From Calothrix brevissima NIES-22 (lineage in GTDB: Bacteria > Cyanobacteriota > Cyanobacteriia > Cyanobacteriales > Nostocaceae), in the NCBI RefSeq assembly GCF_002367995.1, contig NZ_AP018208.1:62001-126000 (forward strand): a stretch of 64,000 nt of DNA, in the 5' to 3' direction. Positions within the stretch are counted from its first letter, which is position 1. Each line of letters starts with the position of its first letter. Below are positions 13,228 through 62,697 of this stretch, in pieces. A program made the translations under genes and the position numbers. The notes beneath the pieces were generated by a model. The model ran no database searches. It was not told the DNA's origin and saw nothing but the letters and a program-made list of their open reading frames with translations.

Positions 13228-14145
13228 TCAACTGATTACACTCGGCATGATCGAGAGAATTTCCAAACCCTCAACAGGGTTAATTCCCAGCTTGTAACAC
13301 CACCTTAAAAACGTAGTGAGAGTAGGTTTTCGCCAATATTTAGCTAGCGGAGTATGGTTATAAGAAGAAGTCTCACTAAGTGTTGGCAGAGCGGCGAAAA
13401 TCTGTCCGACAGATTGAGCAGCCCACTTGTCCCAATCGAACCGAGATCCGTGAGATTTAGCAGTATTATCGAAAAACCGACCCAGCCATGCATTACAAGC
13501 ACAACAATAACCAAGAGAATGACAATCTAGATTGAGAAATTTTTGAAAACAACCACAGTACAAGCAGCGCAATTGTAGGTAACGTTGGTGAACTGGACAA
13601 ACACTAACAGCTTCTATTGTCCACAACAAAGGGTGATAAATAGGTTTTCCAGCTTCACGCCAGTCTTGATAACAACCAGGACACCAACGTTGTTCAGTAT
13701 GGAAAATATGATTGAAGTTAAGCCGCCAGGAATGCCATTGGAGTAAAGTCAGAAAACTCAGATCCCGCCTAGCAGTTAATTTTTCAACGATGGCAACTAC
13801 CTTTGAAACATGTTGCGTTCGGTCTAACCAAAATTTAGCAGACTGCTGTTGTAAAAGTGCAGGCTCCCGATGCCAAGCATTGATGAGCATTTTGATAGCA
13901 TCATCAGCTTTCAACAAATCTGGTGGTTGGTTGCTTTGGATAAATAACGGCGTAATTTTATAGCGAATTAAACTAGCAACCTCGACACCATGTGCAGCAG
14001 CCAAGCGCTGTAAGTAACTAGTAAAACTTTCAACTGTGGGTGTACCAAAACCTATTGGTTGAAGAGAGTAAAGATGACTGCGTTTTGGAAGTTGGTTCAT
14101 TGTTAAGTCCCAAGACTCATAATTAGCCAAACTTTCAACCGACAT
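13228..14145 (-). CDS. tniQ: TniQ family transposition target-selection protein
   Basis: The 305-residue protein starts at the ATG at 14145, preceded by GGAGGTGG; the start lies inside the end of tnsC (11-bp overlap), which implies coupled translation. The N-terminal TniQ signature (LPKRSHLYSLQPIGFGTPTVESFTSYLQRLAAAHG) is clear. It is followed by a zinc-ribbon region with CPGC (about residue 160), CPVH, CLYCGC and CCAC. TniQ/TnsD proteins link TnsC to the target DNA or to a CRISPR complex. At 305 residues it is shorter than classical TnsD, so its target is unknown. Confidence 0.9.
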   Translation of the reverse strand: MSVESLANYESWDLTMNQLPKRSHLYSLQPIGFGTPTVESFTSYLQRLAAAHGVEVASLIRYKITPLFIQSNQPPDLLKADDAIKMLINAWHREPALLQQQSAKFWLDRTQHVSKVVAIVEKLTARRDLSFLTLLQWHSWRLNFNHIFHTEQRWCPGCYQDWREAGKPIYHPLLWTIEAVSVCPVHQRYLQLRCLYCGCFQKFLNLDCHSLGYCCACNAWLGRFFDNTAKSHGSRFDWDKWAAQSVGQIFAALPTLSETSSYNHTPLAKYWRKPTLTTFLRWCYKLGINPVEGLEILSIMPSVIS

Positions 14146-15241
14146 TTTCACCACCTCCAACAGGACGACGTTGAGGTTTAGTGTTACCAGTAGCAGAACG
14201 ACGAGATTGAGTTTTGGTTGTCTGGGATGTGCTATGTGTAACTGACACCTGATGAGATTCCAAACCCAAAGCAATTCTCAAAGCGGAACTATCCGAGGTC
14301 AACTCAAGTTGCTTTTCTCCCAATCTTGTTTCATTGACGATAATTATGCATTGTTCATGAGAGTAAGCAGAAGATATAAGGTGCGACAGAGTGAGAGTTT
14401 TAGCTCCCTGGTGTAACGCCGTTGCCAATGCTTGAGATAACCAATCTTTGAGAATACCGACACAACCGAAACTGCGTTCGTAGCAAAAATCCCAGTATTG
14501 AAGTAAATCAGGCTCTTCCTCAAAAGGTAAATGACGTTGGAAAGTTTGAACAACACCTCTGAAAGCTTTTAAATCTTCTTCATTCTCAGCTTTGTACCGT
14601 TCAAAATGAATATCCAAGCTGCGTCTGCATAACTGGGCACTCAAGTTACGAAGTATTAACAAGTCATAAGTACCTGCTAGTACAAATTTGACCCCAGTCA
14701 GGTTTGCTAGGGACTTAATACAGTCCGTCTGGTCACGTAATTTGCGTCCACTGGCAACTTTACTGAGATTTTGTGCTTCATCAATGCAAAAAACTTTCAG
14801 ACGACGATGTTTAAGTGCAGCTTCTAATGATGTTTTCAACTTCAAATTAGTGATTCGACCAGAACCAGGTAACTGAATGCATGGGTCTTGGAGAACGCCC
14901 AGAGCACGTAGATAAAAATCTTTCCAATCAAAATTACTAAATTCAGGGGTAGCTACTTCGATATTAGCGATAGGAATAAAACCTTTATCTAGCTCCATTT
15001 CTTTTTGAAAAGAACCTAGTAACTTTTGTGTGATGCGACGTAATAATGTGGTTTTCCCTACACCTGTTGGGCCAAATAAAAATATTAAAGAAAAGAACGC
15101 TGGGTCATCAATTGCATTTTTGAGTTTCTCTGCTGCTCTTAATAATTTGGGATGTGCCATTGTATATTGCTGAAAATAAGCAATTTTGTCAGCAATAGGT
15201 AGAGTTAGTAATTCTTGAGGAAAGCTATAATCATGTGCCAT
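14135..15241 (-). CDS. tnsC: TnsC-type AAA+ transposition regulator
   Basis: The 368-residue protein has Walker A GPTGVGKTT (about residues 57-65) and Walker B VFCIDEAQN (about 170-178), the usual layout of TnsC/TniB ATPases that polymerise on DNA and activate TnsB. Its ATG overlaps the stop of the tnsAB gene (TAATG), and its 3' end overlaps tniQ, so the three genes form one operon. The C-terminal 50 residues are Ser/Thr/Arg-rich and probably disordered; in relatives this tail contacts the transposase. Length and motifs look intact. Confidence 0.92.
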   Translation of the reverse strand: MAHDYSFPQELLTLPIADKIAYFQQYTMAHPKLLRAAEKLKNAIDDPAFFSLIFLFGPTGVGKTTLLRRITQKLLGSFQKEMELDKGFIPIANIEVATPEFSNFDWKDFYLRALGVLQDPCIQLPGSGRITNLKLKTSLEAALKHRRLKVFCIDEAQNLSKVASGRKLRDQTDCIKSLANLTGVKFVLAGTYDLLILRNLSAQLCRRSLDIHFERYKAENEEDLKAFRGVVQTFQRHLPFEEEPDLLQYWDFCYERSFGCVGILKDWLSQALATALHQGAKTLTLSHLISSAYSHEQCIIIVNETRLGEKQLELTSDSSALRIALGLESHQVSVTHSTSQTTKTQSRRSATGNTKPQRRPVGGGENVG

Positions 15242-18069
15242 TAGAACTCTCCATAATATTCAAGGGTTTCTGTGGCATATGCACTTAAATGGCTGACTCT
15301 TTCACAATTTTTATCTTCATTAGTCGAGTCATTTTCTGGAGAATCATTATTTTCTGCTGCCGGAAATTCTCCTACATGTAAACTTGGTTCGGGGAGGAAA
15401 TTATTTTGAATCATTTTGTGAACTTTTTCATGTTCAGCATCGCGCAAGCGTTGTTTGAGAATAGCGCCTTCTTGAGCATGTTTTGAGTTTAAAAATTCTA
15501 CTAGTTCTCTATCATTGATTGTTAACTTTCGCCCATAATTGCGTTGGCGCTGATTAAGTTCTGCACTGACGAGCCGGATTTCTTTTTCGGAACGTCCTTG
15601 GAAGTATTGATAGTAAGAAGAAATGCATTTGACCCACTGTCCTTGTGCCAGTGCATAGGCAATTCCTGCATTCCAAGGGTCGTAACGAACCCACAGCATT
15701 GATTTCTCGATTTCTGGGTCACGGAATACATCTGCCCAGTAATAAATATTGTGTATTTTGACACCCTTTCCTGGCTGAACTTTACGCTTTCGTTGATCGG
15801 GTGCTGGTAGAGTCAGAATCTGGAATAATTCGTCATTTGCCACTCTTCGGTGTAAGCGACTTCCACCTGTTGCTAGTCCAGTGACAAAAGCATCATGGGG
15901 ACTAGTACCTAATGCCGGATGCAATCGTTGGTCATAAACTGAATATGCCCATTCGCAAAAGGCAGAGTACAGTTGTTCTAATGTCCAAATTGCTAATCTT
16001 TCTGGACTGACAGATTTGGTGACTTGACGGTGAAGGCGTTTGATTTGGGTGTTACCTTGCAACTCATGAATAAACTGCGTATTCGCGGTGCCAAATAGTC
16101 TTTCAACAATTGAACCAAACCGAGCATATGCTGGCGGGCGATACTTCAGCGTGCAAGTATAAGATGCTAATAATTGTTCAAAATAGTGACTGTGAAATTC
16201 TTTTCCGTTATCGACAACAATATTTTGCGGAAACCGTCCAAATCTGGCGACGCATATGCGAATTACCATCATACAATCACGGTAGCTTGGCTCATCGAAG
16301 GTCAGGTAAACTGATAAAATTCTTCGACTATATGCATCAACCATAAAGGTTGCCCAAGGACGACCTAAATTGTGATGAATTGAGTTGTTTGTAGCAATAT
16401 AACAATTAGTTAGAGATTCGAGGGAACTGACTAATTCAATGTCAATTTGAGTATGGTCAATATGGACAATCTCGAAGGGACGACTACCATGTTGTGGAGT
16501 AGTTTGCTCTAATTCCCAATAAAATGGTTCTTCGGCAATAGCGGCTCGATTACCAAGACGTTTTCTGGTTTGATTGTGCCCGCTTCGTTGTTTAATCGCT
16601 TGGCAAAATGTGATTCTCGATGGTGGTTTCAATGGGGGTTCATGGTTTTGGCACGCTAAGACAAATGCCTCGTAAACCCGTAATTTTCTGCGTTGTTTGG
16701 GTGTTTCATAATGCTCTATGATAAATTCGAGCATAAATTCTTGGGTTTGAGAATCAATTTTGGGAGTACGATTGCCTTTACTTTTATGCTTGGGCAGTAA
16801 TCCCAGGTATCCATGACCATAGATGAGTAAGGCTTTTTGGTATTGAGTACGCCAACGACGGACTGTGCTGCTTGGATATGCTCTCGGATTATCTCCTAAG
16901 TATGGTTGTATTAAATTGTAGCGACGGTTGGCTTCGATAATATCTTCACAAGTTGCATGTTTAATAATTTCCGTCGCTGCTGCTTTAATATTTGAGGTTT
17001 GTGTTGTCTCAACTCCCACAATTTTACCTGTATCAATCAATGCTGTGAATGCTGCATTTGGTAGTTCTATAAGTTTGCCATCTGCACGTAATAATCCAGT
17101 AGTAGTCGTCCCAGTATTTACTATTTCCCATGACTCTCCATCCCAATAAATATTAGTACCTACTGCTATTTGGAGTAATATTTGATTACTAGTTTGGGTT
17201 TTTGACTCGATTGAGTTAAGATGCTCATAAGATAAAGCAACATCTTGGTTAATAAATACGAGTACGGTTTCTGGTTGTGAGAGTTTGACTTGATTCAGTT
17301 CTACGTAAAGTTTATCTGTGGCTATTAACCAATAAAGAACATCGGGATTTATTTCTTCTATTTGTAACAGTTCTGCCAGGGTTATTCCTGGATAATTTTT
17401 TACCGTGGCTCTAATCAAGCTAGGCTCGGTTTCGTCTAGAATTTCTGATGAGTATCCGAAATAATCTGATAGCCAAATTAGATTTTGTTGAAACTTCCAA
17501 TTAATCAAAGCATCTGACCATACGTGAAAGTCTAAGCCTTGAAGACGAGCGTATTCTTCACCTGGGGGACAATGCCATTTGCCATCTGGGCTTTTGCAAT
17601 AGCGATTTGGGTTCAATTCGGTCAGCTTGTTGAGTTCTAGTTCGGTTTTGCATTCCTCCCAAAAAGCTGAATCTGTCCGAATTATAAAGAAATCGGGTGT
17701 GTACTGGTGTCTGTTTTTTCGCCCGTTTTTGCTTTGATAGACTAATTCTATTGCTGGCGGTTGGTCGTAATATTCGAGTACAGATGGGTCATGTTCTAGT
17801 TCATAAATACGTGCTAATTCGTTATGATGGCTCTCAAATTGAATAGTCACTCCCATTTTTCTTGAGGGGTAACTGCCACATACGTTTTTTCTTGCCCCGG
17901 TTACTCGACGAGATGGGTTGGCGCTGCGAATCTCCTCAATTATTGCCTGCGCTGCTTGACTGAGGTCTTGTTGACGGCACCAGTTGTTAAATTCTTGCTT
18001 GCCAAGCATAATTTTAGGTGAGGAGAGAGTGTTGCTTGCCAATGTCTCTCCTACTGTTGATCTCAGCAC
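15241..18069 (-). CDS. tnsAB: TnsA-TnsB fusion transposase
   Basis: The 942-residue protein joins a TnsA-like endonuclease to a TnsB-like DDE transposase. In the TnsA part, catalytic residues fit E84 (SHHNE), D126 (YTPDF) and K141 (EECK). In the TnsB part the DDE triad fits D538 (HIDHTQID), D620 (VVDNGKEF) and E656 (VERLFG), followed by an Arg/Lys-rich C-terminal tail. TnsA cleaves the 5' ends and TnsB the 3' ends, giving cut-and-paste movement. The longest frame starts at GTG 18069; TTG 18042 has AGGAGAG at good spacing and may be the true start. The gene lies just inside the right end and leads the operon. Confidence 0.93.
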   Translation of the reverse strand: MLRSTVGETLASNTLSSPKIMLGKQEFNNWCRQQDLSQAAQAIIEEIRSANPSRRVTGARKNVCGSYPSRKMGVTIQFESHHNELARIYELEHDPSVLEYYDQPPAIELVYQSKNGRKNRHQYTPDFFIIRTDSAFWEECKTELELNKLTELNPNRYCKSPDGKWHCPPGEEYARLQGLDFHVWSDALINWKFQQNLIWLSDYFGYSSEILDETEPSLIRATVKNYPGITLAELLQIEEINPDVLYWLIATDKLYVELNQVKLSQPETVLVFINQDVALSYEHLNSIESKTQTSNQILLQIAVGTNIYWDGESWEIVNTGTTTTGLLRADGKLIELPNAAFTALIDTGKIVGVETTQTSNIKAAATEIIKHATCEDIIEANRRYNLIQPYLGDNPRAYPSSTVRRWRTQYQKALLIYGHGYLGLLPKHKSKGNRTPKIDSQTQEFMLEFIIEHYETPKQRRKLRVYEAFVLACQNHEPPLKPPSRITFCQAIKQRSGHNQTRKRLGNRAAIAEEPFYWELEQTTPQHGSRPFEIVHIDHTQIDIELVSSLESLTNCYIATNNSIHHNLGRPWATFMVDAYSRRILSVYLTFDEPSYRDCMMVIRICVARFGRFPQNIVVDNGKEFHSHYFEQLLASYTCTLKYRPPAYARFGSIVERLFGTANTQFIHELQGNTQIKRLHRQVTKSVSPERLAIWTLEQLYSAFCEWAYSVYDQRLHPALGTSPHDAFVTGLATGGSRLHRRVANDELFQILTLPAPDQRKRKVQPGKGVKIHNIYYWADVFRDPEIEKSMLWVRYDPWNAGIAYALAQGQWVKCISSYYQYFQGRSEKEIRLVSAELNQRQRNYGRKLTINDRELVEFLNSKHAQEGAILKQRLRDAEHEKVHKMIQNNFLPEPSLHVGEFPAAENNDSPENDSTNEDKNCERVSHLSAYATETLEYYGEF

Positions 18070-35930: not shown

Positions 35931-38900
35931 TCAAATTTTAACTACTTGCAACAATTGTTCAAACAAGGGTTCACCAAAATTCATTAATCGTAGAGAAGGC
36001 ATTTCATCAAAAACTTTAGGGTAAAAAGTAACCGTGTAATTCTGCCCTTTATAAGTCAGTTGCCAAATACTCTCAGCCCTTCTCTCAAACTGCACACCAT
36101 TAGCTTTTAAAATTGCTGAGGATGTGAATAATTGCTCAATCGTTTCTGGCGTAAAGGGAGCAGAAGTAATTGGTTTTTGAATTTCCGCTAGGTCAGCGTC
36201 TAAATCCATTGCTATCATTTCCTCAATTGCTAGACGAGGCGGTGGGCTGTCTAACACAGAATCGAATTCAGACATTAAAACATCTTCTTCCTCTGGATCT
36301 GCGCTCATAGCCGCTTGTTCAATAAACGTAGGCACTTGCGCTAGAATTGGCTGGAGATTGCCAACAACAGTGGCAAAAGCATTAATGCGATCGCGTAATT
36401 TTTTATAAACCTTCGCTTCTACCGTGCCATCATAGTAAAAATTGTGGATTCGCACAGTAGAATACCTTTGTCCAATGCGGTCAATTCTGCCAATGCGCTG
36501 TTCTACCCGCATGGGATTCCAAGGCATATCATAATTAATCAACACACCGCAATTTTGTAAGTTTAAACCCTCGGAAGCAGATTCAGTACACAGGAGAATT
36601 TTGATTTCATCTTGACGGAATCGGCGTTTAATTTCTTCCTTGGGAACTAGACACCACTCCCCATTTTGGTACAGTTCACCACCGCGACCAGAGTAGCAAG
36701 CCACTTGGCTACCGTACAACTCCTGCAAAGTATCCCGCAGATAGTCCATTGTATCGGTGTATTGGGTGAAAACGATCGCACTTTCCCGTTCAGTTAATTC
36801 TTGGCGTAAAATCTGAATAAAGCGGGAAAGCTTGGTATCTTCTCCTGTATTTTCAAACTGGCGTAATAGTTCTTCTAAATATTGAATTTCCTGGGGGTCT
36901 ACTGGTTCAAAGAAAGATTCCAACCCAGCGATTACTGTATCTTCTGCATCGTCTATATCTGCTAAATCATCGTCACTTAAAACGCTTCCTTGTTGGGTTA
37001 ACAGGTAGTCCAAACGGCGTTGTAGAGATGATTTAATTGCATAAAATGAACTGGTCAACCGTTTGCGGTAAAGCGTCATTAAAAAACCCAAACAGGAACG
37101 CTTATCTTTTTGAGCTAGTCGATAAAAATGACGTACATAGTCACTGACAGCTACATAAAGCGGTACTTCCCGTTGTGGTTCCAAAGTAATGGCGTTGTCC
37201 TGTACAACTCTGGTGGGAATATCTCGTTCTAGCAGTCCCCGGCGGTAGTATTGTCGTAAAGTGTCGCGGGTGTGGCGAAACATCAAGTCTTTTAAAGGAG
37301 TGTTCACTGTCAAGTATTGGCGCGAAGTGGTCATAAATTCTTCATCTGCCAATAGTTGTTTATGATTAGAAATTTTCTTACCCCGTTGCCAAGTATCCTG
37401 CATTTTGTAAGCCAAAATGCGATCGCTCTTGCTCAAAAACTGCTCTAATCTAGAGCAAGGTTGTCCGCCCTTTTGAAAATAATCACTGGACATGACTTGC
37501 TAAAAATTCATTACTTCCTGCTTGACAGCACCTTGTAGGGAGGCGAAATAGTAGCAGAAGTTATCGCCATAACTCCAATGTCCCTGCAATCCCAGCAGGT
37601 TTAACAAATCAAAAACTTCTATGGCATCAATTTGCATAGGAGTTGCTGAGAGGAGAACCAGAGATTTAGTTTTCTCCTTCAGCTGTGCCATTAACTCTAA
37701 CAGGCGATTGGGCGTTTCTTTACGGTCTTGAGGACTTTTACGCCTTGCATGGTGTGCTTCGTCCAATACCACTAAATCCCAAGATTCTGCTGATAGTAGC
37801 TGGCGCATTCTCTCAGTTCGGCGTACCAAATGAGAAGAAGCAAGAATTAAGTTTTGGGTATTCCAGGGATTAGCTGCTGCTGGGATAGTGCGTTTGTAAG
37901 GATCTTTAAATTCTGTGGATGTGTAACTCCAAAAATGCAGATTGAATTTTTCTCGCAGTTCTTCTTGCCATTGGGGTTGAACGCTAGCAGGTGCTAATAC
38001 CAATACCCGCTTCACTTTTTTGGATACCAGCAGATAGCGTAGAATTAAACCAGTTTCAATTGTTTTACCTAAACCAACTTCATCAGCGATGAGAAAACTT
38101 TGGGGAAAATTTTGAGCAACGCGACGCAGTATTTTAATTTGGTGTGGCCAAGGTTGAATAGGAATTGATTTTAAACAAAAATCTAAGCAGCCGAGATGTT
38201 CATGAATATTAGCAAGTTGAGTAAATGCCAACCGTTCTTGTTCGCTGTTGACGGTTGACGGTTGACGGTTGACTGATGACTGTTCACTGTTTATTTCAGT
38301 TTTCGTAGTGGGAGCATCTTGCTCCCTACTGTTATCGCCACTGGTATCGCCACTGGTAGTAGCGGGCAAGATGCCCGCACTACTCCAGGTTTCAAAACGG
38401 ACAAGGTTTAATTCTGTTTTGGTCAAAGGTCTAGAGTCAAATTCTGCCTGGGCATTCCAGTTAGGCTTCGTAGCAGGGGCATAACGCAATAGCTTTTTTT
38501 GTACCGCCTCTGGAACATCAAATACTCGCACGTTAGGCGATACGTCATACCAAAGTTGCTCAAATCTAGCTACTTCTTCTTCAACTCTATCTAGTTCCCT
38601 TCCTCCTTCCCAAGAACAATAAACGTGAAATGATTCTACATTTCTCTCCCAGCCACCAATAGATTCGTTGTTGGAACCGTTAAATGCTAATTTATCGCCT
38701 TTACTATCAGTAAAAATGCCAACTTTTTCGTGAAATATATGTTGTGGATCTAGTTGCTGTGTACTGTCTTCTGGTAGTCCATTTTCTTTTAGAGGAATAG
38801 CAATTTTAATATCGAGATATTGATTTTGAATTAACCAGCTAAGAATTTCAAAATGTTTAAGTTGGGCAAAGTTTTCTGGGGGTTTTAAATCTGCGTCTAG

Positions 38901-39182
38901 CCGAGATAGCAATGCGTCTCTAAGTTCGTATCCCTGTTGAATTGCTTGTAAATCCTGTGGGCTAAACTGACAGCCCATAATTAACCGCATTCGCCCTTCG
39001 TTGTGCAACATTGCACCCAAACCACGAGCAACTTTACTCAAGATAGCACTGCTAAAAAAACCTGCTTTGCGGTCATACTGGATAGCACACTCTAAAGCAG
39101 GAATGTAGAAATCAGCAATGGTGTTGTGGGTATTGCTGGAGTAACTAATTTTCCAAGGATAATCACGTAAAATTTTCGGCAT
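35931..39182 (-). pseudogene. PLD-like plus SNF2-family helicase, split by an in-frame amber stop
   Basis: Two frames in the same phase (39182-37500 and 37493-35931) form one protein of about 1,080 residues interrupted by TAG at 37500-37502. The N-terminal part has a phospholipase D-like half (HEKVGIFTD, FNGSNNES), then the SNF2 N-lobe with ADEVGLGKTIETG and VVLDEAHHARR. The second part has the C-lobe with LLCTESASEGLNLQ and RIGRIDRIGQ. Such PLD-SNF2 proteins occur among anti-phage candidates. The second frame could restart at ATG 37493, three codons after the stop, giving two polypeptides. Repeats inserted near codon 270 add about 45 low-complexity residues. Confidence 0.8.
38236..38385. repeat. 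Dispersed repeats inserted in frame inside the helicase gene
   Basis: The segment contains tandem TTGACGG heptamers (38248-38275), the palindrome GGAGCATCTTGCTCC (38311-38325) and GCGGGCAAGATGCCCGC (38362-38378). The same palindrome families recur between genes at 39893-39972. Here they are translated, giving the Ser/Thr/Asn/Gln-rich linker between the PLD and helicase parts. Confidence 0.75.
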
Positions 39183-54161: not shown

Positions 54162-55708
54162 GTAAGGATTCAGGTCAAGAGGTATTGACAAATGTGACAT
54201 CTGAGGCGGAGTATCACAATTATGGGAAAAGACCTGCTTGTGAAATTAGAGCGTGAAACCCTTCTCCAGTTAGCTCCGGAACAACTGGTGGACATAATTG
54301 TTGAGCAGGCGATCGCCATAGAGAAACTGAACTCCAGAATTTTAGAACTAGAAGAAAAAGTAGAGAAACTCAAGGTCAGTAGAGATTTAGACAGCAAAAC
54401 ATCATCGAAACCACCATCGGGAGATATCCTCAAAAAAACAGAGAAAAAACAGCAGGATAAACCAGAGGAGAGTGAGGCTCCGAAAAGGAAACCAGGAGGA
54501 CAACTAGGGCATCGAGGAAAAACGCGTAAGGGTTTTGGCAGAGTAGATCGTTGTGAAATATTGCGTCCAGAGAATTGTGTTTACTGTGGTCAAAAAGCAT
54601 TTGCGACCGTAGCAGTAAAAGTAGAAAAGCAGTGTATAGCGCAATTAGTGGAACGTCCTATCGAAATAGTAGAGTATCAACGCCAAACCTGTGTGTGTGA
54701 GTGCTGTGGTAATTTACAAGCTTCCCACTGGCCAGAAGAAATTATTCCAGGACAAGATTTAGGGGTGAAATTACAGGCATTTTTAGGATGGGCAAATAAT
54801 TATGCACATATGCCCTATGAAAAACAGCAGGAAATGCTGTGGGAATTGGGTCAAATTGAAATTGGACTAGGCACTTTGGTTGCCACCAATGAACGAGTAG
54901 AAAAAGCAATTGAACCGAGCGTTCTTGAGTTAAGTAGTTGGGTAAAACAGACACAACCTAACGTTCATGTAGATGAAACACCTTGGTCTGTCAAGGGAGT
55001 TAAAGAATGGTTGTGGGTAGTTGCCAATTCTGAGTTTTGCCTGTTTACTGCGGCTGACACTCGTTCCAGAGCCGAACTAGAAGCCATTTTAGGGGCTGAA
55101 TATACAGGGGTAATCAGCAGTGATGATTTTAGTGTTTACAATGGCTATGCGGTGGCTGACCAGCAGAAATGTTTGGCGCATCTACGCCGTCACTTCAAAA
55201 AACTAATTCAACTTCCAGGACTTCATAACCAAGCTATTGGTGAAGCATTTGTTGATTTAATTGATGAAGCTTTTAGAAATTATGCTCAATGGTTTGAGAC
55301 TCTTGAGTGCGCCAGTTATAACGATTGGGTCAATCAATTCAAATCTAAGTTGCAACTAACTGTTGATCAATGGATTGATTTAGCTGGAGCTACAGCAGGA
55401 AACCTTTTACGTTCTTTACGGGATAAAGCCAATCAATGGTGGTATTTTCTTGATAATCCTGAAGTTCCTCCTGATAACAATCAGGCCGAACGCTCACTTC
55501 GTTTAGCTGTGACTAAACGTAAGGTTAGTGGTGGTTCCCGTTCAATAGAGCGATTTCAACACACTGCTAATTTGTTGACGGTGGTGCAGACTTGTCGCCG
55601 TCAAGGTCGGTCTGTGATTGATTTCTTTACACAAGCACTAGTGGCTGATTCTATTAATTATCAATCTCGCCCTTCTTTACTTCCTTAATATTAGACCTGA
55701 ATCCTTAC
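54162..55708 (+). mobile_element. IS66-like insertion sequence with a single gene
   Basis: Perfect 15-bp inverted repeats GTAAGGATTCAGGTC (54162-54176) and GACCTGAATCCTTAC (55694-55708) enclose 1,547 bp. Only the large transposase is present; tnpA and tnpB of classical IS66 are absent, as in the compact cyanobacterial IS66-like group. The flanking 8 bp (CTAAATTT and TATTTGAT) do not match, so no duplication is seen. It truncates the gene at 55709-56015. Confidence 0.9.
54222..55688 (+). CDS. IS66-family DDE transposase
   Basis: The 488-residue protein shows the family layout: an N-terminal leucine-rich coil (residues 25-50), a Lys-rich KPGGQLGHRGKTRKG linker, zinc-finger cysteines CVYCGQ and CECCGN, then the DDE domain with D in HVDETPW, D in SSDDFSVYNG and E in DNNQAERSLRLA. 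The C-terminal IS66 helix (VVQTCRRQGRSVIDFF) is complete. The gene appears intact. Confidence 0.93.
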   Translation: MGKDLLVKLERETLLQLAPEQLVDIIVEQAIAIEKLNSRILELEEKVEKLKVSRDLDSKTSSKPPSGDILKKTEKKQQDKPEESEAPKRKPGGQLGHRGKTRKGFGRVDRCEILRPENCVYCGQKAFATVAVKVEKQCIAQLVERPIEIVEYQRQTCVCECCGNLQASHWPEEIIPGQDLGVKLQAFLGWANNYAHMPYEKQQEMLWELGQIEIGLGTLVATNERVEKAIEPSVLELSSWVKQTQPNVHVDETPWSVKGVKEWLWVVANSEFCLFTAADTRSRAELEAILGAEYTGVISSDDFSVYNGYAVADQQKCLAHLRRHFKKLIQLPGLHNQAIGEAFVDLIDEAFRNYAQWFETLECASYNDWVNQFKSKLQLTVDQWIDLAGATAGNLLRSLRDKANQWWYFLDNPEVPPDNNQAERSLRLAVTKRKVSGGSRSIERFQHTANLLTVVQTCRRQGRSVIDFFTQALVADSINYQSRPSLLP

Positions 55709-56015
55709 TATTTGATAATTCGGCATTTGTAATTGAGGACTGGGGTTGAGTGTGTCCTAAACGTTGATTAATCCATTCTTGAAGTTGGTGATTGAAAATT
55801 GAATTAACAGTTGATAAGTTGAGAGTTTCTGCAAATTCTTTGAACTCCCAATCTTCAGGAATACTAGAAAATAAAAGCTCTAGTTGTTCGGAAGTGACTG
55901 TTACCACACCTGTACAATCTAGCAATGCTAGTTTTTGGCTAATAAATGTGCTAGCTGCTACGATTGCGCTTTGATTCTGCTGTAATAAATCCTGAAGTTT
56001 AATTGGGAGTTTCAT
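55677..56015 (-). pseudogene. Hypothetical protein truncated by the IS66-like element
   Basis: From ATG 56015 (MKLPIKLQDLLQQNQSAIV) about 100 residues are original; the last residues (KDSGLILRK) come from the IS end. The sequence LLDCTGVVTVTSEQLELLFSSIPEDWEF suggests a helical soluble protein. The family is not recognised. The gene precedes, on the minus strand, nothing but the IS, and follows the Rpn-family gene by 22 bp, so both were probably one operon. Confidence 0.55.
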
Positions 56016-56037: not shown

Positions 56038-56832
56038 TTACATCGTTTGTACAACTTTTCTTACTTCTTCTACGTCTAGTTCTAAACGTTCAGAAATTTG
56101 TTGAATAGTTAAACCTAGTTCTAGGAAGATTGGGATCATTTTCAATTTTGTTTCTAGTTCACCTTCTTCCTTACCTTCTGCTTTGGCTTCTTGATAAACT
56201 CTAGTTTCTTTCAGCAAGTTTAAATTCAGCATGGCTTCTATCTCCTCGCGGCTTAAATTAGGAAACTTGTAGACTACGATTGTCTCTATAAATTCTAAAA
56301 CTTTTCTTTGGATGAGAGTGTCTGTTAATTGTTCTTTAGCTTTATTAATTAGGGTTTTGGCTAATTCTCCGGCTTTATTTTCACTCTCTACAACTAAGCG
56401 GACAATTCCCATACCCAGAGAATCGTCTGGTACGTCGTCAAGTTCGTCTAGGTAAAAGCGACGTAGATGGGGTTCTAATAAAGAACGATAACGTTGGGGA
56501 TAGGTACGTTCATTGCTGCGCTTGTCATAGATAACTATTGCAAACCAATCAGGGTTAGGTGGCTGATATTGAGTGAAGTAAAGGAATATACTGGTGAATA
56601 GTCGGTCATAAAATTCTTCATCTTTGTAAAACTGAACTTCGATAAAGTACAGTGCTTCATTAGGGAATTCTGCAAATGGAGAAAATACCCCATCTAATCG
56701 GAAACTTTTTTGTTTAATTTCTGGTGCAATAAACTCATATATATTGGTTTTAGTATCTGGTTTACCAATGATTTCAAAAAAGATGTTGGGAAATTCTTTA
56801 AATATTTCGTAGAAAATCGCATCTGTTTTCAT
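56038..56832 (-). CDS. Rpn family recombination-promoting nuclease (DUF2887-type)
   Basis: The 264-residue protein opens MKTDAIFYEIFKEFPNIFFEIIG, with the PD-(D/E)XK-like core FRLDGVFSP...ALYFIEVQFYKDEEFYDRLFTSIFLYF. The C-terminal part has an acidic/Lys helix (YQEAKAEGKEEGELETKLKMI) and a final short helix-turn-helix-like ISERLELDVEEVRKVV. Members are related to transposase_31/Rpn nucleases, which promote RecA-independent recombination in E. coli; the cyanobacterial ones are numerous and poorly studied. Length is normal. Confidence 0.87.
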   Translation of the reverse strand: MKTDAIFYEIFKEFPNIFFEIIGKPDTKTNIYEFIAPEIKQKSFRLDGVFSPFAEFPNEALYFIEVQFYKDEEFYDRLFTSIFLYFTQYQPPNPDWFAIVIYDKRSNERTYPQRYRSLLEPHLRRFYLDELDDVPDDSLGMGIVRLVVESENKAGELAKTLINKAKEQLTDTLIQRKVLEFIETIVVYKFPNLSREEIEAMLNLNLLKETRVYQEAKAEGKEEGELETKLKMIPIFLELGLTIQQISERLELDVEEVRKVVQTM

Positions 56833-56896: not shown

Positions 56897-59086
56897 TCAC
56901 ATAAACATTCTATCCCATGCCTCTAAAACTAATCTTTGTGTACGGTATTCGCCAAATTGCTTAATTTCGTTGTTCTTTAAAACGCGGAATGTTTCGCTGG
57001 GGAAGTCTTCGCCGTAGACATCAGCAGGGTCGAGAATATATCGAAGTTCATCACGGTTTAGTCCGTAGAGTTTGGCGTAATATGCGTCTAATTCTGCTCT
57101 TAGTAACGCGCGTCTGTTGCTGTTCCAAATAAAGGGTTCGCCGTCATATCCCATATCTTTGGCGAAGGGTTGCATGTCCCAAGCAGTGTAGACTAATTCA
57201 AGTACGCGGGTGCTGATAAATTTGATGTCTTCTTGAGAGTATGCTTCTGGTGGTATGACAGGTAGTTGTTTGATAATAAAATAACTAAAGTCAGTTCCAC
57301 CCATTTTTTGTCTAGTTACAAAATCAAATACTAATGAATTGAAATTAGCTAATAAGCAACCAATTAATGTTATAAATTTTTTATCGATTAAAATAATAGG
57401 TGCTTTATGACCTACAGCAACTTTAGGTAATATGCTAAAAATAGCCGTGCGCTCATTAGTGGAACGTCCAATACTTCTAAAAGTCAATAACCAATCTTGT
57501 TCCCATTTAACATTTAACCGATTTTCTACCTCAGATTTACTAACCCAGTAACGAGGCTTAACCATAAAATTAAAATTTTGTTTAACCTCCTCTGATGGCT
57601 TTGGTAATATACCAACATTTAAATCAGCTTGACTTGCTCCTTCATAGGTTGAGTAACGATGATCAAACTGATAAAACATTTTTGCTTCGTAGAGTGACAC
57701 TAAGCCATTTTCATGGTCATTTCTGAATAAATAACTATCATTTGACATATCGAACATTCGTATAAATGATATACACCAAGATGTTTTACCTGTAATTTCA
57801 TTTTCTATAATAGGTACACGTTGATAAATCTTCTTGGTTAGTTCAGCATCAGTATAAGTACGAAAAATTGGGCAATTAAATGTATTAGGGTTTATAGCGT
57901 GAAAGTCCAATTTGCTTAGTTTTACTTGTCTAGCATTTTCATTTGCTTGTGAAATATTCCACGCAAACCAGGAAAAATTCATTTCAGTAAAATTACATTT
58001 TGTTCCACCAATAAATATGATACAAAAAGAAACTCTGTGATCAATTCCAGAAAATAAAAACCTTTCATTTTCAAAACCTATTATTCCTTGAAGGCTATAT
58101 GATTCAACACTGTAATATTCTCGGTATATTCGTGCTTTTTCTACATCATCTCCAATTAATAATAAATTGCGGGATTCTGCCACCATTAAAAACAACAGGC
58201 GATAAATTAGCCGCAACAATTGACGATAAAATTCGTAGTTTGTAATTTCTGTTTCGTAGTGGGGGATAACTCCTAATTTTTGGCGCAGATGTTCGTTTTG
58301 CGGATGTTGAATAAAACCGTTACCTAGCAGAACTAAAGCTTGTTCAACCCCATCTCGAAGTTTGTCGCGTACCCGTCCACCTTGTTGCAGTGCTTCTTGG
58401 TGGTAATATTCCAGCAGACATTTATCCGCATCATCCACAGCTTCAGGCAAGCGAGAACGGTGGAACAGCCGATAAAATAAGCCAAACTCAGCAAAGTTTT
58501 CACCGTTGAGAATTTGCTCTAAGTCAAATTCGATATAAGTAAGACGAGTCATCAAGGAAGAATCACGTAGCAAGCGCCAACGAAAACCATTAGTTGCGAT
58601 CGCCCACAAATGCTCTGTCTTGTTAAGATACTCCTGCACCAGTGCGTGTGCTGATAGCCTGGGTGTGCCACTGGGCGGACGTTTATCAACTTCTAGCCGA
58701 CAACCAATAATGTGGATAGGTGGTTTATTTTCTCCCTCTTCCGCACGATGGGAAATTGCATAAGTTTGTCCCTCCACTACTTCGGCTGTTGCAGTATATA
58801 CAGGGTCATAGCCTAGACTCTTTAGTAATGGCACAGCCCAAATTTCACGGGTAATAGTTGTAGCGGAGTTATTCTCATCTAACCTTGCCAATGACCTTTG
58901 AAATGCTGCCCAGTATGCTTTAGCATCACCCCAAGCTGTAGCAATTTCATCTGCTAATTTATCAGTTTTATTAAAACCAAAATCCTCTGGTGATTGTCCT
59001 TTGATACTGCCTTCTAGCATTTGGGCAGTCATATCTGGAGCGAGTAAATTTCCTTCAATTTGAAGCGCAGTTAATGTAGTTTTCAT
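56897..59086 (-). CDS. DrmMI-like (DISARM class 1) protein lacking the methyltransferase core
   Basis: The 729-residue protein keeps both outer parts of the large Eco57I-like adenine methylase associated with DISARM: the N-terminal region (residues 1-327, ending DVEKARIYREYYSVE) and the C-terminal target-recognition-like region (SLQGIIGFENE, INPNTFNCPIFRTYTDAELTKKIYQRVP, ISFIRMFDMSND, QFDHRYSTYEG). In relatives known to me these are separated by some hundreds of residues with the SAM motif (DPACGSG) and NPPW/NPPY; none of these is present. The frame is uninterrupted across the joint near 58100. It is therefore a clean internal deletion derivative, catalytically dead as a methylase. It follows drmD by 65 bp. 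Confidence 0.75.
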   Translation of the reverse strand: MKTTLTALQIEGNLLAPDMTAQMLEGSIKGQSPEDFGFNKTDKLADEIATAWGDAKAYWAAFQRSLARLDENNSATTITREIWAVPLLKSLGYDPVYTATAEVVEGQTYAISHRAEEGENKPPIHIIGCRLEVDKRPPSGTPRLSAHALVQEYLNKTEHLWAIATNGFRWRLLRDSSLMTRLTYIEFDLEQILNGENFAEFGLFYRLFHRSRLPEAVDDADKCLLEYYHQEALQQGGRVRDKLRDGVEQALVLLGNGFIQHPQNEHLRQKLGVIPHYETEITNYEFYRQLLRLIYRLLFLMVAESRNLLLIGDDVEKARIYREYYSVESYSLQGIIGFENERFLFSGIDHRVSFCIIFIGGTKCNFTEMNFSWFAWNISQANENARQVKLSKLDFHAINPNTFNCPIFRTYTDAELTKKIYQRVPIIENEITGKTSWCISFIRMFDMSNDSYLFRNDHENGLVSLYEAKMFYQFDHRYSTYEGASQADLNVGILPKPSEEVKQNFNFMVKPRYWVSKSEVENRLNVKWEQDWLLTFRSIGRSTNERTAIFSILPKVAVGHKAPIILIDKKFITLIGCLLANFNSLVFDFVTRQKMGGTDFSYFIIKQLPVIPPEAYSQEDIKFISTRVLELVYTAWDMQPFAKDMGYDGEPFIWNSNRRALLRAELDAYYAKLYGLNRDELRYILDPADVYGEDFPSETFRVLKNNEIKQFGEYRTQRLVLEAWDRMFM

Positions 59087-59151: not shown

Positions 59152-62010
59152 TTACTTACGTCCGGGTTGGAGGATAAAAACGCCGAGAACATCCATCGGC
59201 AATTGGGGAGTGACGCGGATTCGACCTTCTTTGGTAATGTCCCTCACCCGTTTATGGCTTTGTAAAAGTTCTTCCGCCCTTTCCCCAGCAAACTTTTCCA
59301 AATCTGGCTGGAGTTCTTCTAACCTTTCGAGTAACTCAGCAATTTCCACTTGCTTGATAGCTTTACCAACATCGCTGACTGGCTTGGCTTCTTGCAGTAA
59401 TGATGTTGCTTCCAACTGCGACAACCAGCTAGGGCTAGAAGGCGAACCTGTAAAGCCGATAACGGCGCATTCTTCCGCTAGTAGAGATGTAGTATTTCGC
59501 CTTTCTGTACTACGTTTAGAACTATCTAACAAATGCCGTAGCCGTACTAACAGCAAAGTCGTGCGCTTTTGTACAGCATTAGTTGTGGTAAAGCCGCATC
59601 GGGCTGCGATCGGTTCTGTAGTATGGGAGAGCGCATCTTCTAAAATGTACCGCGCTAAACCTTCCACCAAAGGATGATTCCGCCCCACATATTCCACACC
59701 TTCTGGTGCTGGGGTGGTAAAAGTGAGTAAGCGCGATTTATCGCCTAACGTTGACTTGAGAAAATCCGGTGGTTGAGAAAGTAACCATCCCTGCTTTTTC
59801 TTAATTAAAGAACAAGAGATGCGATCGCACGCCGATAAGATAAAGCGCTCTACATCCTGCTCATTCCCTAAAATCTGGTCAGAGTCAATTAGTTCTTGTT
59901 CTACTTGCTCAGGCTTAATCGCACGTTGAGCAAAGCGAGTCCGATTGATTTTTTCGCGTTCTACGGCGTTGTCCCAATTCTTATGAACTTTATCAACCGC
60001 AGATTCTTCCTGAAAATCAAACAGCGATAATTGGATAGCTTCAGCAGCACGTTCAAACAGCGATTTAAAGACAGCCTCCGCTACAGTCGTACTTTCCATT
60101 GGTACGGGAACAGTAATCCCCAAAGACTTGTGAATTTGAACAGCCTTGCGTATTAGAACATCAAGAACTGCACCATCAACAGGATTATCCTGACCATAAA
60201 GCAAGCAAGCTTTTACCTGACTGGCAGTTTGACCGTAGCGGTCAATACGGCCTTCACGTTGTTCCAAACGATTTGGATTCCAGGGTAAATCGTAGTGAAT
60301 TACAGCATTGAAGTGGGTTTGCAGGTTTACCCCTTCGCTCAAACAGTCCGTAGCTACTAGCACTCGTTGGGGATAGGATTTTAACTCTTCCAAACGAGTT
60401 TCCCGCTCATCCTCTGAAAGTTCTCCAGTAATAGCGATTACCCGAATTTGGCTCCCTTTTTTCTCTAATTTCTGCCTGAGAGCATCAGCCACATAATTTG
60501 CAGTAGCAATATAGCGACACCAGATAATCGGGTTCATCTCTTCTTTGAGCAGAGAATCTACCGTAGCAATGCATGATTGCAGCTTTTGGTCTTTGTCACC
60601 CCGCAACTTCTCTGCTGCTTGCACAAAAGCTTTTAACTTGCGTTTATCTGTGTCCTTATAGCTTTGCTGTCCCTGTTCGATTACCACAGTTGGTGATGCG
60701 TCAACTGCTTGTTCTTGTTCTGTGGGATCGTGGACATAAGAACTCATCAAGTCTTCGTCTAAATCAGCTAGTGAGCGATCGCGATCGCGTTCACTTGATT
60801 TACTAACTTGGCGATTGAGAGTTGCGATCGCTGCTGCTGGCGAAGACATCACACAACGAATTAACGCCAACGCCGACCAATATCTTCCCCGACGTTGAGC
60901 ATGACTCATGTCCGCCGTAGTAGTTTTCACTAAACCACGGGCAAAGTCATAGACATCATCAAATAGCTGTTTATATTCTTTCGATAACTTGTATGGCGTT
61001 TCTTCTGAATTTCTTTCAGGAAAAGGCGTTTCGTTCCCTAACCAAATTTTGACATCTGCCCGTCGCCGCTGCACAAAATGATTAGCTAGGCGATCGCGTT
61101 GCTTCTCATTCAAATTACTTAAGGTAAAATGCTCAAACTCTGGCTTCAGCAAGCCTAGAAGAGAGAGAAAAGACTCTTCAATCCCGCTGTGAGGAGTAGC
61201 AGTGAGTAACAATAAATGTTGTTCTTGCTTTTGGGCAATCTCTGTAATTAGCTGGTGTCGTTGCTGCTGCGATGTAGTATTTTTGTTGGGACGAGCGCAA
61301 GTGTGAGCTTCATCCACAATCACCAAGTCTGGACAATGGGTAATAAAACTAGCACGCCGACGCTCTGCTTTGGCGTAGTCCAAGCTAACTATCAGGTATC
61401 GATAATAACTAAAAACACTCTCATTATTTGGTATGTTCCGCTCTAACTTAGAAGCTGTGCCAGAACGTACTACCACAGCATCAATATGAAACTTTTCGCG
61501 TAATTCCTGCTGCCACTGTTCACACAAGTGTGGTGGACACAGCACTGCGATTCGCTTCACCTCGCCTCTATCCAAAAGCTCACGCGCAATTAATCCCGCC
61601 TCGACAGTCTTGCCAATTCCTACATCATCAGCGATTAGCAGTTTTACCGTCTCTAACTTCAGCGCCATCAACAGAGGAACCAACTGATAAGGACGGGGAC
61701 GCAGCGATAACCGTCCTAAACAGCGAAAAGGCCCTGCACCGCTACGGAGTAAAAGACGTGCAGCATCCATGAGTAAGAGTGCAGCTGCATGGTCTTGTAC
61801 GCTAGTAGCTTGAGGTAGAGGAAATGTTGCTGATTCAATCTTTTCAAGACTTTCTGACAGCAAGGGCTGGAAAATTCCAGCGATTTCGTCCTCATTTCCT
61901 GAGAGGGGACGCAAGCGGATAATTTCCTGATTTTCCGAAGGTAGCACCACCCACTGTCGATTCCGACAGGTGATTATAGAACCAGGTGTAGGGTTCAATA
62001 TGTCCGTCAT
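59152..62010 (-). CDS. drmD: DrmD-like SNF2 helicase of DISARM class 1
   Basis: The 952-residue protein starts MTDILNPTPGSIITCRNRQWVVLP from ATG 62010, with AGAGGG upstream. It has SNF2 motifs: LIADDVGIGKTVEAGL (Walker A), VIVDEAHTC (DEAH box), LLLTATPHSG (motif III) and the C-lobe SEGVNLQTHFNAVIHYDLPWNPNRLEQREGRIDRYGQ. The Arg/Gly-type N-terminal strand region is typical of DrmD. It should be an ATP-driven DNA translocase in phage defence. The DISARM genes drmA, drmB and drmC are not in the window. The gene appears intact and leads a two-gene operon. Confidence 0.83.
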   Translation of the reverse strand: MTDILNPTPGSIITCRNRQWVVLPSENQEIIRLRPLSGNEDEIAGIFQPLLSESLEKIESATFPLPQATSVQDHAAALLLMDAARLLLRSGAGPFRCLGRLSLRPRPYQLVPLLMALKLETVKLLIADDVGIGKTVEAGLIARELLDRGEVKRIAVLCPPHLCEQWQQELREKFHIDAVVVRSGTASKLERNIPNNESVFSYYRYLIVSLDYAKAERRRASFITHCPDLVIVDEAHTCARPNKNTTSQQQRHQLITEIAQKQEQHLLLLTATPHSGIEESFLSLLGLLKPEFEHFTLSNLNEKQRDRLANHFVQRRRADVKIWLGNETPFPERNSEETPYKLSKEYKQLFDDVYDFARGLVKTTTADMSHAQRRGRYWSALALIRCVMSSPAAAIATLNRQVSKSSERDRDRSLADLDEDLMSSYVHDPTEQEQAVDASPTVVIEQGQQSYKDTDKRKLKAFVQAAEKLRGDKDQKLQSCIATVDSLLKEEMNPIIWCRYIATANYVADALRQKLEKKGSQIRVIAITGELSEDERETRLEELKSYPQRVLVATDCLSEGVNLQTHFNAVIHYDLPWNPNRLEQREGRIDRYGQTASQVKACLLYGQDNPVDGAVLDVLIRKAVQIHKSLGITVPVPMESTTVAEAVFKSLFERAAEAIQLSLFDFQEESAVDKVHKNWDNAVEREKINRTRFAQRAIKPEQVEQELIDSDQILGNEQDVERFILSACDRISCSLIKKKQGWLLSQPPDFLKSTLGDKSRLLTFTTPAPEGVEYVGRNHPLVEGLARYILEDALSHTTEPIAARCGFTTTNAVQKRTTLLLVRLRHLLDSSKRSTERRNTTSLLAEECAVIGFTGSPSSPSWLSQLEATSLLQEAKPVSDVGKAIKQVEIAELLERLEELQPDLEKFAGERAEELLQSHKRVRDITKEGRIRVTPQLPMDVLGVFILQPGRK

Positions 62011-62697
62011 TGTTTGCCCTCTGAAAATTTGGCAACAGAAGTCAAGCAATAAGTGTTAAAACTTACTACTTACTACGGGTATTTAACTATTGCGTTAGAA
62101 ATAGCCTTGTTCTGTTTTATGTCAGTTTAACTACTTAAGCCTTAGTAATATTGCTTAATTTATCAAATCAAGAATAAAATTTCATCGTATTTTCATAAAG
62201 TAATTATTTACTCTCTAGGTAATAAGCAGACTCAGCAATTACACGGTTATGCCATCCCTTACCCCTTCCAAAAGCTTGGACTTGTGAAAATTAGCTGACT
62301 GGAGGAGTTAGGAAAAGCGATCGCACATTGGCCCTTTACAACACATTAACTAAAGAGCAAAAACAGCAGATACCCCAAGTCTTGCGGGTGTGGCTGCGTT
62401 ATCGCAGTGAGAAATATTTTGGCGCACATCGAACACAGCCATTGTCGGCACGAAAATCGAAATAGATAGTACCAGAGCGTCCGTTGTTCAATTTACGCAC
62501 ATCGAGTTCTGCTTGGTACACTTACGACACAACCCAAAAAATCAATGCCTTTCTAAGATGCAGACAGATGAGATTGTTCTTTTGTGATTGTGGATTGTTA
62601 ATTTTCATCTAATGCTGAATTTTTATTTCTGTCCTCCCTTTCCTGACAAAGGTAATGATGCTAAATTTCCTTTATTTACAATGCTCCAAGATAATTT
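62011..62697. other. Intergenic region with a short possible remnant
   Basis: A 45-codon plus-strand frame from TTG 62329 to 62466 reads LYNTLTKEQKQQIPQVLRVW and may be a gene fragment. No other coding potential is seen. The AT-rich end (62620-62697) probably holds the promoter of the HU gene. Confidence 0.4.

Follow-up and report, generated by a model that had tools for sequence, protein, structure and literature searches.

We found that a 64,000-nucleotide stretch of the Calothrix brevissima NIES-22 genome (NZ_AP018208.1, positions 62,001 to 126,000; hereafter the window) carries what is very probably an ARMADA type I anti-phage locus that has undergone a recent, ordinary inactivation, with a shortened armB gene as its decaying leftover. 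Two lesions are seen, which would account for this state: the insertion of an IS66-type element in armC, with all but the start of that gene lost, and a deletion of ~1.7 kb in armB across a short sequence match, the reading frame having presumably been kept by chance. We infer that the shortened ArmB has ceased to methylate or to support defence and that the system is dead. The loss appears to be recent, because armA and the N-terminal part of armB still look constrained.

An armB gene lacking its methyltransferase core

The armB-type methylase gene of the window (56897-59086, minus strand) is, according to the list of open reading frames, a single frame of 729 codons with no stop, and both family alignment and DNA comparison place an internal in-frame deletion of ~1.7 kb within it. 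Residues 1-329 and 327-728 of the 729-aa product correspond to opposite ends of relatives that are mostly ~1,290-1,320 residues long (~1,300 for the family), and ~570 middle residues are missing, the SAM-binding and NPPW motifs among them. DPACGSG and NPPW are nearly invariant (at least 90%) across an alignment of the window protein with 33 relatives; a motif scan of the window protein found neither CGxG nor NPP. We compared the spacing between the two ends of armB in 85 loci, some genomes being present in both collections. Both ends were present in 58 loci, including the window's own, and lay 1,659-2,277 bases apart in the other 57 and 0 bases apart in the window, where they abut; of the loci left out of this count, 13 had a left end but showed no start of the right end, owing to contig ends or deletions, and 14 had no left end. 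Together, the spacing comparison and the loss of near-invariant motifs show that the gap in armB is real. The first-pass annotation had proposed that the core was deleted in frame without a stop codon, and was right to do so; it had also described SAM-binding and NPPY motifs as absent, and here the motif loss holds but the wording does not, as the family motif is NPPW.

Comparison with the left and right sides of relatives places the deletion joint at 58103-58108 (GTTGAA, minus strand), in agreement with an earlier estimate that the outer regions are joined near 58100. The left side in relatives reads ATTGA(A/G) and the right side, in the best case (locus L088), GTTGAATCA, the window itself reading GTTGAATCA. 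The sequence match across the joint is thus 4-6 bases, which fits replication slippage or another illegitimate event. DNA identity to the closest relative, genome G088, ends at 58110, that is, at the joint. The kept N-terminal region (residues 1-328; 58103-59086, minus strand) is 96.9% identical to that of G088.

To the other side of the joint, the target recognition domain and C-terminal tail (56900-57871, minus strand) show fold matches to CamA, M.BseCI, BrxX, and HsdS chains. An AlphaFold2 model of the window ArmB, built from a 34-row alignment (mean pLDDT 76.2, pTM 0.53), has its longest low-confidence stretch at residues 297-330, where the joint lies, with pLDDT below 50 over most of it. 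Judged by the range ends of structure comparisons, the portion following the joint begins to match at about residue 125-177 in M.TaqI and at residue 502-535 in most BrxX/PglX chains, in each case within the methylase domain, which in BrxX is reported to end at residue 650. CamA and M.BseCI are likewise matched from within their methylase domains, these too being range ends rather than residue-level alignments. Most S subunits, which have no methylase domain, match starting only at about model residue 415-420. Therefore, ~80-90 residues of the methylase fold seem, in the model, to be still joined to the recognition domain, and the joint does not look like a clean domain excision, contrary to the earlier description of a core "cleanly removed". 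We assign this probable leftover of the C-terminal methyltransferase fold to approximately residues 329-405 (57872-58102, minus strand), its limits being approximate and drawn from those range ends.

Genome G088 carries two ARMADA copies ~68 kb apart (L031 and L032, with L171 and L172). Their armB proteins agree completely up to aligned column 650, are 76-92% identical over the next 250 columns, fall to 22-40% per 50 columns in most of the recognition domain, and are near-identical again in the tail; the two armC regions share 99.6% DNA identity. Because the copies diverge in the recognition domain between near-identical flanks, that domain seems to be subject to exchange. In the window, DNA identity to G088 ends at the very place of the joint, so the deletion may have arisen together with an exchange of this kind.

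Four loci (L097, L114, L118, and L120) have ~300-600 extra bases in the methylase region of armB at a similar place, about core residue 145-195; at least in L097, L114, and L118, the extra stretch does not interrupt the open frame. In L037 and L052, a short in-frame insert encoding the peptide ASPRASLRT, possibly a small repeat element, interrupts otherwise similar armB proteins.

Search for a second core-less form

We searched for other proteins sharing the identical gap with two queries: the whole protein, run against 192 family, 388 order, and 386 phylum genomes, and the joint region, run against 217 family genomes. The samples overlap; up to five candidates per genome were scored in the family search and up to two in the order and phylum searches, the latter two at E <= 1e-30. 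Apart from the window's own, none of the matches listed from the family, order, and phylum genomes or from the joint-region search ran without a gap over both armB ends. The same joint was absent from all 64 named-genome loci, each of which was examined, and from the 20 plasmid records listed out of 131, and viral contigs gave zero matches. No second case of the joint was found in any of these sets.

Two candidates for a second form were rejected. In Planktothrix agardhii NIVA-CYA126/8, residue 233 of armA is joined to residue 757 of armB, out of frame. In P. agardhii No.365 p1, residue 335 is joined to residue ~619 in frame, but NPPW is retained; this copy is truncated, running only from residue 203 to 1238, where a Tn3 transposase lies ~0.8 kb away, and it stands alongside a long open armB of 1,346 aa on p4. 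Internal out-of-frame armB deletions were found in Nostoc sp. NMS8 (judged by its length one contig, present in two collections as L099 and L034) and in L132. Genome G003 has a broken armB and only residues 431-1784 of armC, and no armA was seen within the upstream stretch fetched. Some of these broken armB copies may be due to draft assemblies. Because other armB copies carry varied deletions, a chance in-frame deletion in the window is unsurprising.

The uniqueness of the core-less form in these searches is what would be expected if the core had been dropped during assembly and the living strain had a full-length armB. We consider this quite unlikely: a repeat collapse would need more shared sequence than the 4-6 bases common to both sides of the joint, the genome is assembled in nine contigs at 100% completeness and 0.4% contamination, and a close copy of the core was not found on any contig. 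A query with the core matched this genome only in part: the two DISARM methylases and a further methylase-type frame aligned at 39-59% over 27-156 residues. None of these lies within the window, so this search showed no separate methylase core nearby.

A probable ARMADA type I locus with a truncated armC

For many cyanobacteria, the ARMADA preprint (PMC12458937) gives the order of ARMADA type I as a RapA-like helicase, a PglX-like methylase, and then a YprA-like helicase. The names armA, armB, and armC come from a type II locus in that work, and are applied here by position and similarity. Immediately before the PglX-like methylase gene, the window has a BrxHII/RapA-like helicase gene, an armA-type SNF2/RapA-like frame identified by its open reading frame and profile matches (59152-62049, minus strand; 965 aa), which is intact and 97.5% identical to the G088 copy. 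Downstream is the start, ~102 codons, of a YprA/Druantia-like helicase gene. In relatives, the gene after the armA-armB pair encodes a helicase of ~1,780-1,790 codons whose best profile match is Druantia DruE, and DruE profiles were also the best match of the armC of G088 and of one Planktothrix armC. Among the named loci with an armB end, the window not counted, armC was seen in the fetched flanks downstream of armB in 33 of 51, its match beginning only at residue 115-434 in three of the 33; only 2 of the 18 loci without a visible armC had the 6 kb of flank to show one. We infer from the armA-armB pair and the start of armC that the window locus is ARMADA type I by ancestry, an assignment that rests on gene order and cyanobacterial relatives. 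Unlike ARMADA type I as described there, the window has an armB without the methylase core, only the first ~102 codons of armC, and an Rpn-family gene in between.

The armC remnant (55709-56015, minus strand) comprises approximately the first 102 codons of a ~1,780-codon gene and is 90% identical to G088 armC. It ends at 55709, and the border of an IS66-type element lies at 55708. This element (54162-55708, plus strand) has 15-base terminal inverted repeats and a transposase at 54222-55688 (PF03050); by eye, its flanks (ctaaattt versus tatttgat) show no 8-base duplication. No armC sequence was found beyond the element within the window, and when a distant armC and the armC of G088 served as queries, nothing but the first ~94-106 codons came up in the genome, the further matches being partial (27-41%) and to other helicases. 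As these searches return only its start, most of armC is gone from the genome assembly. This truncation at an IS66-type element supports the suggestion, made in the first-pass annotation, that the shortened methylase gene may be a decay product.

One of the G088 copies is collinear with the window locus, with breaks at 58110 and 55709. DNA identity runs from 62324 to 58110 at 93.5%, resumes in the armB tail from 57360 to 56902 at 86.5%, and reaches 96.9% between 56834 and 55709, a stretch that takes in the Rpn gene and the start of armC. The Rpn-family (DUF2887) gene in the armB-armC interval (56038-56832, minus strand; PF11103, 1.2e-74) is 99.2% identical to that of G088. Of the 34 loci showing both armB and armC, the window counted, 11 have such a gene at this position; a term search of the main text of the ARMADA preprint (PMC12458937) found neither "Rpn" nor "DUF2887". 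The locus is carried on a 158-kb contig, probably a plasmid, of what its relatives suggest to be a Nostoc-like cyanobacterium. Elsewhere in the window, an SNF2/PbeA-like helicase frame (35931-39182) is split by a single TAG at 37500-37502, and Tn7-like transposition genes lie at 13228-18069, one product being TniQ-like and another combining TnsA-like and integrase (TnsB-like) domains.

PADLOC labels the methylase as a mixture of type IIG and DrmMI and the helicase as DpdE or DrmD, with DpdE best. With DISARM class 1 the window shares adjoining, related helicase and methylase genes. However, the window helicase scores 383.8 bits on the DrmD NCBIfam model (cut-off 610) and 218.3 on that of DpdE (cut-off 500), thus falling below both. 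The gene earlier described as an intact DrmD helicase is indeed an intact frame, but of ArmA type. Full-length relatives of the window methylase reach 245-269 bits on a DrmMI model on which the DrmMI of contig C3 reaches 1,371.5 (up to 1,639 across DrmMI models). The genome's DISARM loci are elsewhere, on contigs C1 and C3: these two closely similar loci (L153 and L152, respectively) each hold DrmD, DrmA, DrmB, DrmC, and a DrmMI-type gene, with DrmD (1,173-1,174 bits), DrmA, DrmB, and DrmC above their cut-offs at both and DrmA model matches in the genome at C3 and C1 only. Their helicases are 27-28% or, in a second comparison, 30-31% identical to that of the window. The earlier DrmMI/DISARM label is thus set aside. 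The recognition-domain fold of the window ArmB is common to BREX PglX/BrxX, CamA, M.BseCI, and MmeI, all of which differ from the window protein in that it has no methylase core.

Constraint on the remaining genes and the case for loss

We counted changes on the window branch. The N-terminal part of armB has 3-6 amino-acid versus 6-13 silent changes, the ratio of ~0.08-0.15 varying with the comparison used; for armA, over 529 aligned codons, the count is 6 versus 28-30 (~0.06), and a test of the two against each other gives p = 0.30. The broken armB copy of G003 has 9-11 amino-acid versus 8-12 silent changes. Against G088, the window shows an excess of amino-acid changes in this part of armB with L035 as outgroup (6:13 versus 0:14; Fisher p = 0.027), the counts being 5:11 versus 1:14 with L048; against G003, they are 3:11 versus 9:8 (p = 0.14). 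These counts show signs that constraint on armA and the N-terminal part of armB is still visible, and they would be compatible with recent loss and with retention alike. Loss is favoured because armC is missing, not because of the change counts.

Published mutants bear on the function of what remains; they are of a type II system, the window locus being type I. In E. coli ARMADA type II, losing any of the four genes abolishes protection, as does the N971A mutation in the NPPW motif of ArmB, and the SAM-motif mutation G605A removes activity only in part (PMC12458937); SAM binding is therefore not fully essential in the type II system. For BrxX, SAM is reported to improve DNA binding. By analogy, with ArmC lacking as well, the shortened ArmB most likely no longer acts in defence.

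The first-pass annotation had also raised a repurposed protein: the shortened ArmB would bind DNA through its recognition domain and recruit ArmA without methylation. The open 729-codon frame, the constrained armA and armB N-terminal part, and a recognition domain modelled at fair to good confidence and similar to those of HsdS and BrxX are in keeping with it, but armC is lost, the joint seemingly falls within the methylase fold in a region of low model confidence, the joint did not recur anywhere in the searches, and the published type II mutants argue against it. We found no positive support for this reading and regard it as very unlikely. Less likely still is its more specific version, that the shortened ArmB is still made and forms with intact ArmA a sequence-specific DNA-binding helicase pair that needs neither ArmC nor methylation. 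That a DISARM-locus methylase serves the shortened ArmB in trans is hardly credible: such methylases exist as open frames of 1,324-1,325 aa on C3 and C1, but they are distant (25-36% in local core alignment; 43-44% over ~155 residues with the core query) and belong to separate loci, and the lack of armC would stand in any case.

Decay of the locus is thus the reading that we prefer, on the evidence of an armC cut at the IS border, the breaks in collinearity with G088, the short match at the joint, the lesions in other armA/armB loci, and the loss of protection in the published type II mutants. Weighed against it are the fully open frame, the constraint on the N-terminal part and armA, the partial activity of G605A, and the type II origin of the mutants. 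If the recognition-only protein were real, target recognition would be separated from self-marking in the ARMADA defence class. As it stands, the locus illustrates that apparently neat domain surgery can be one among several chance deletions in an often-broken defence locus, and that the pair labelled DpdE and DrmMI/type IIG by PADLOC represents members of ARMADA loci in cyanobacteria.
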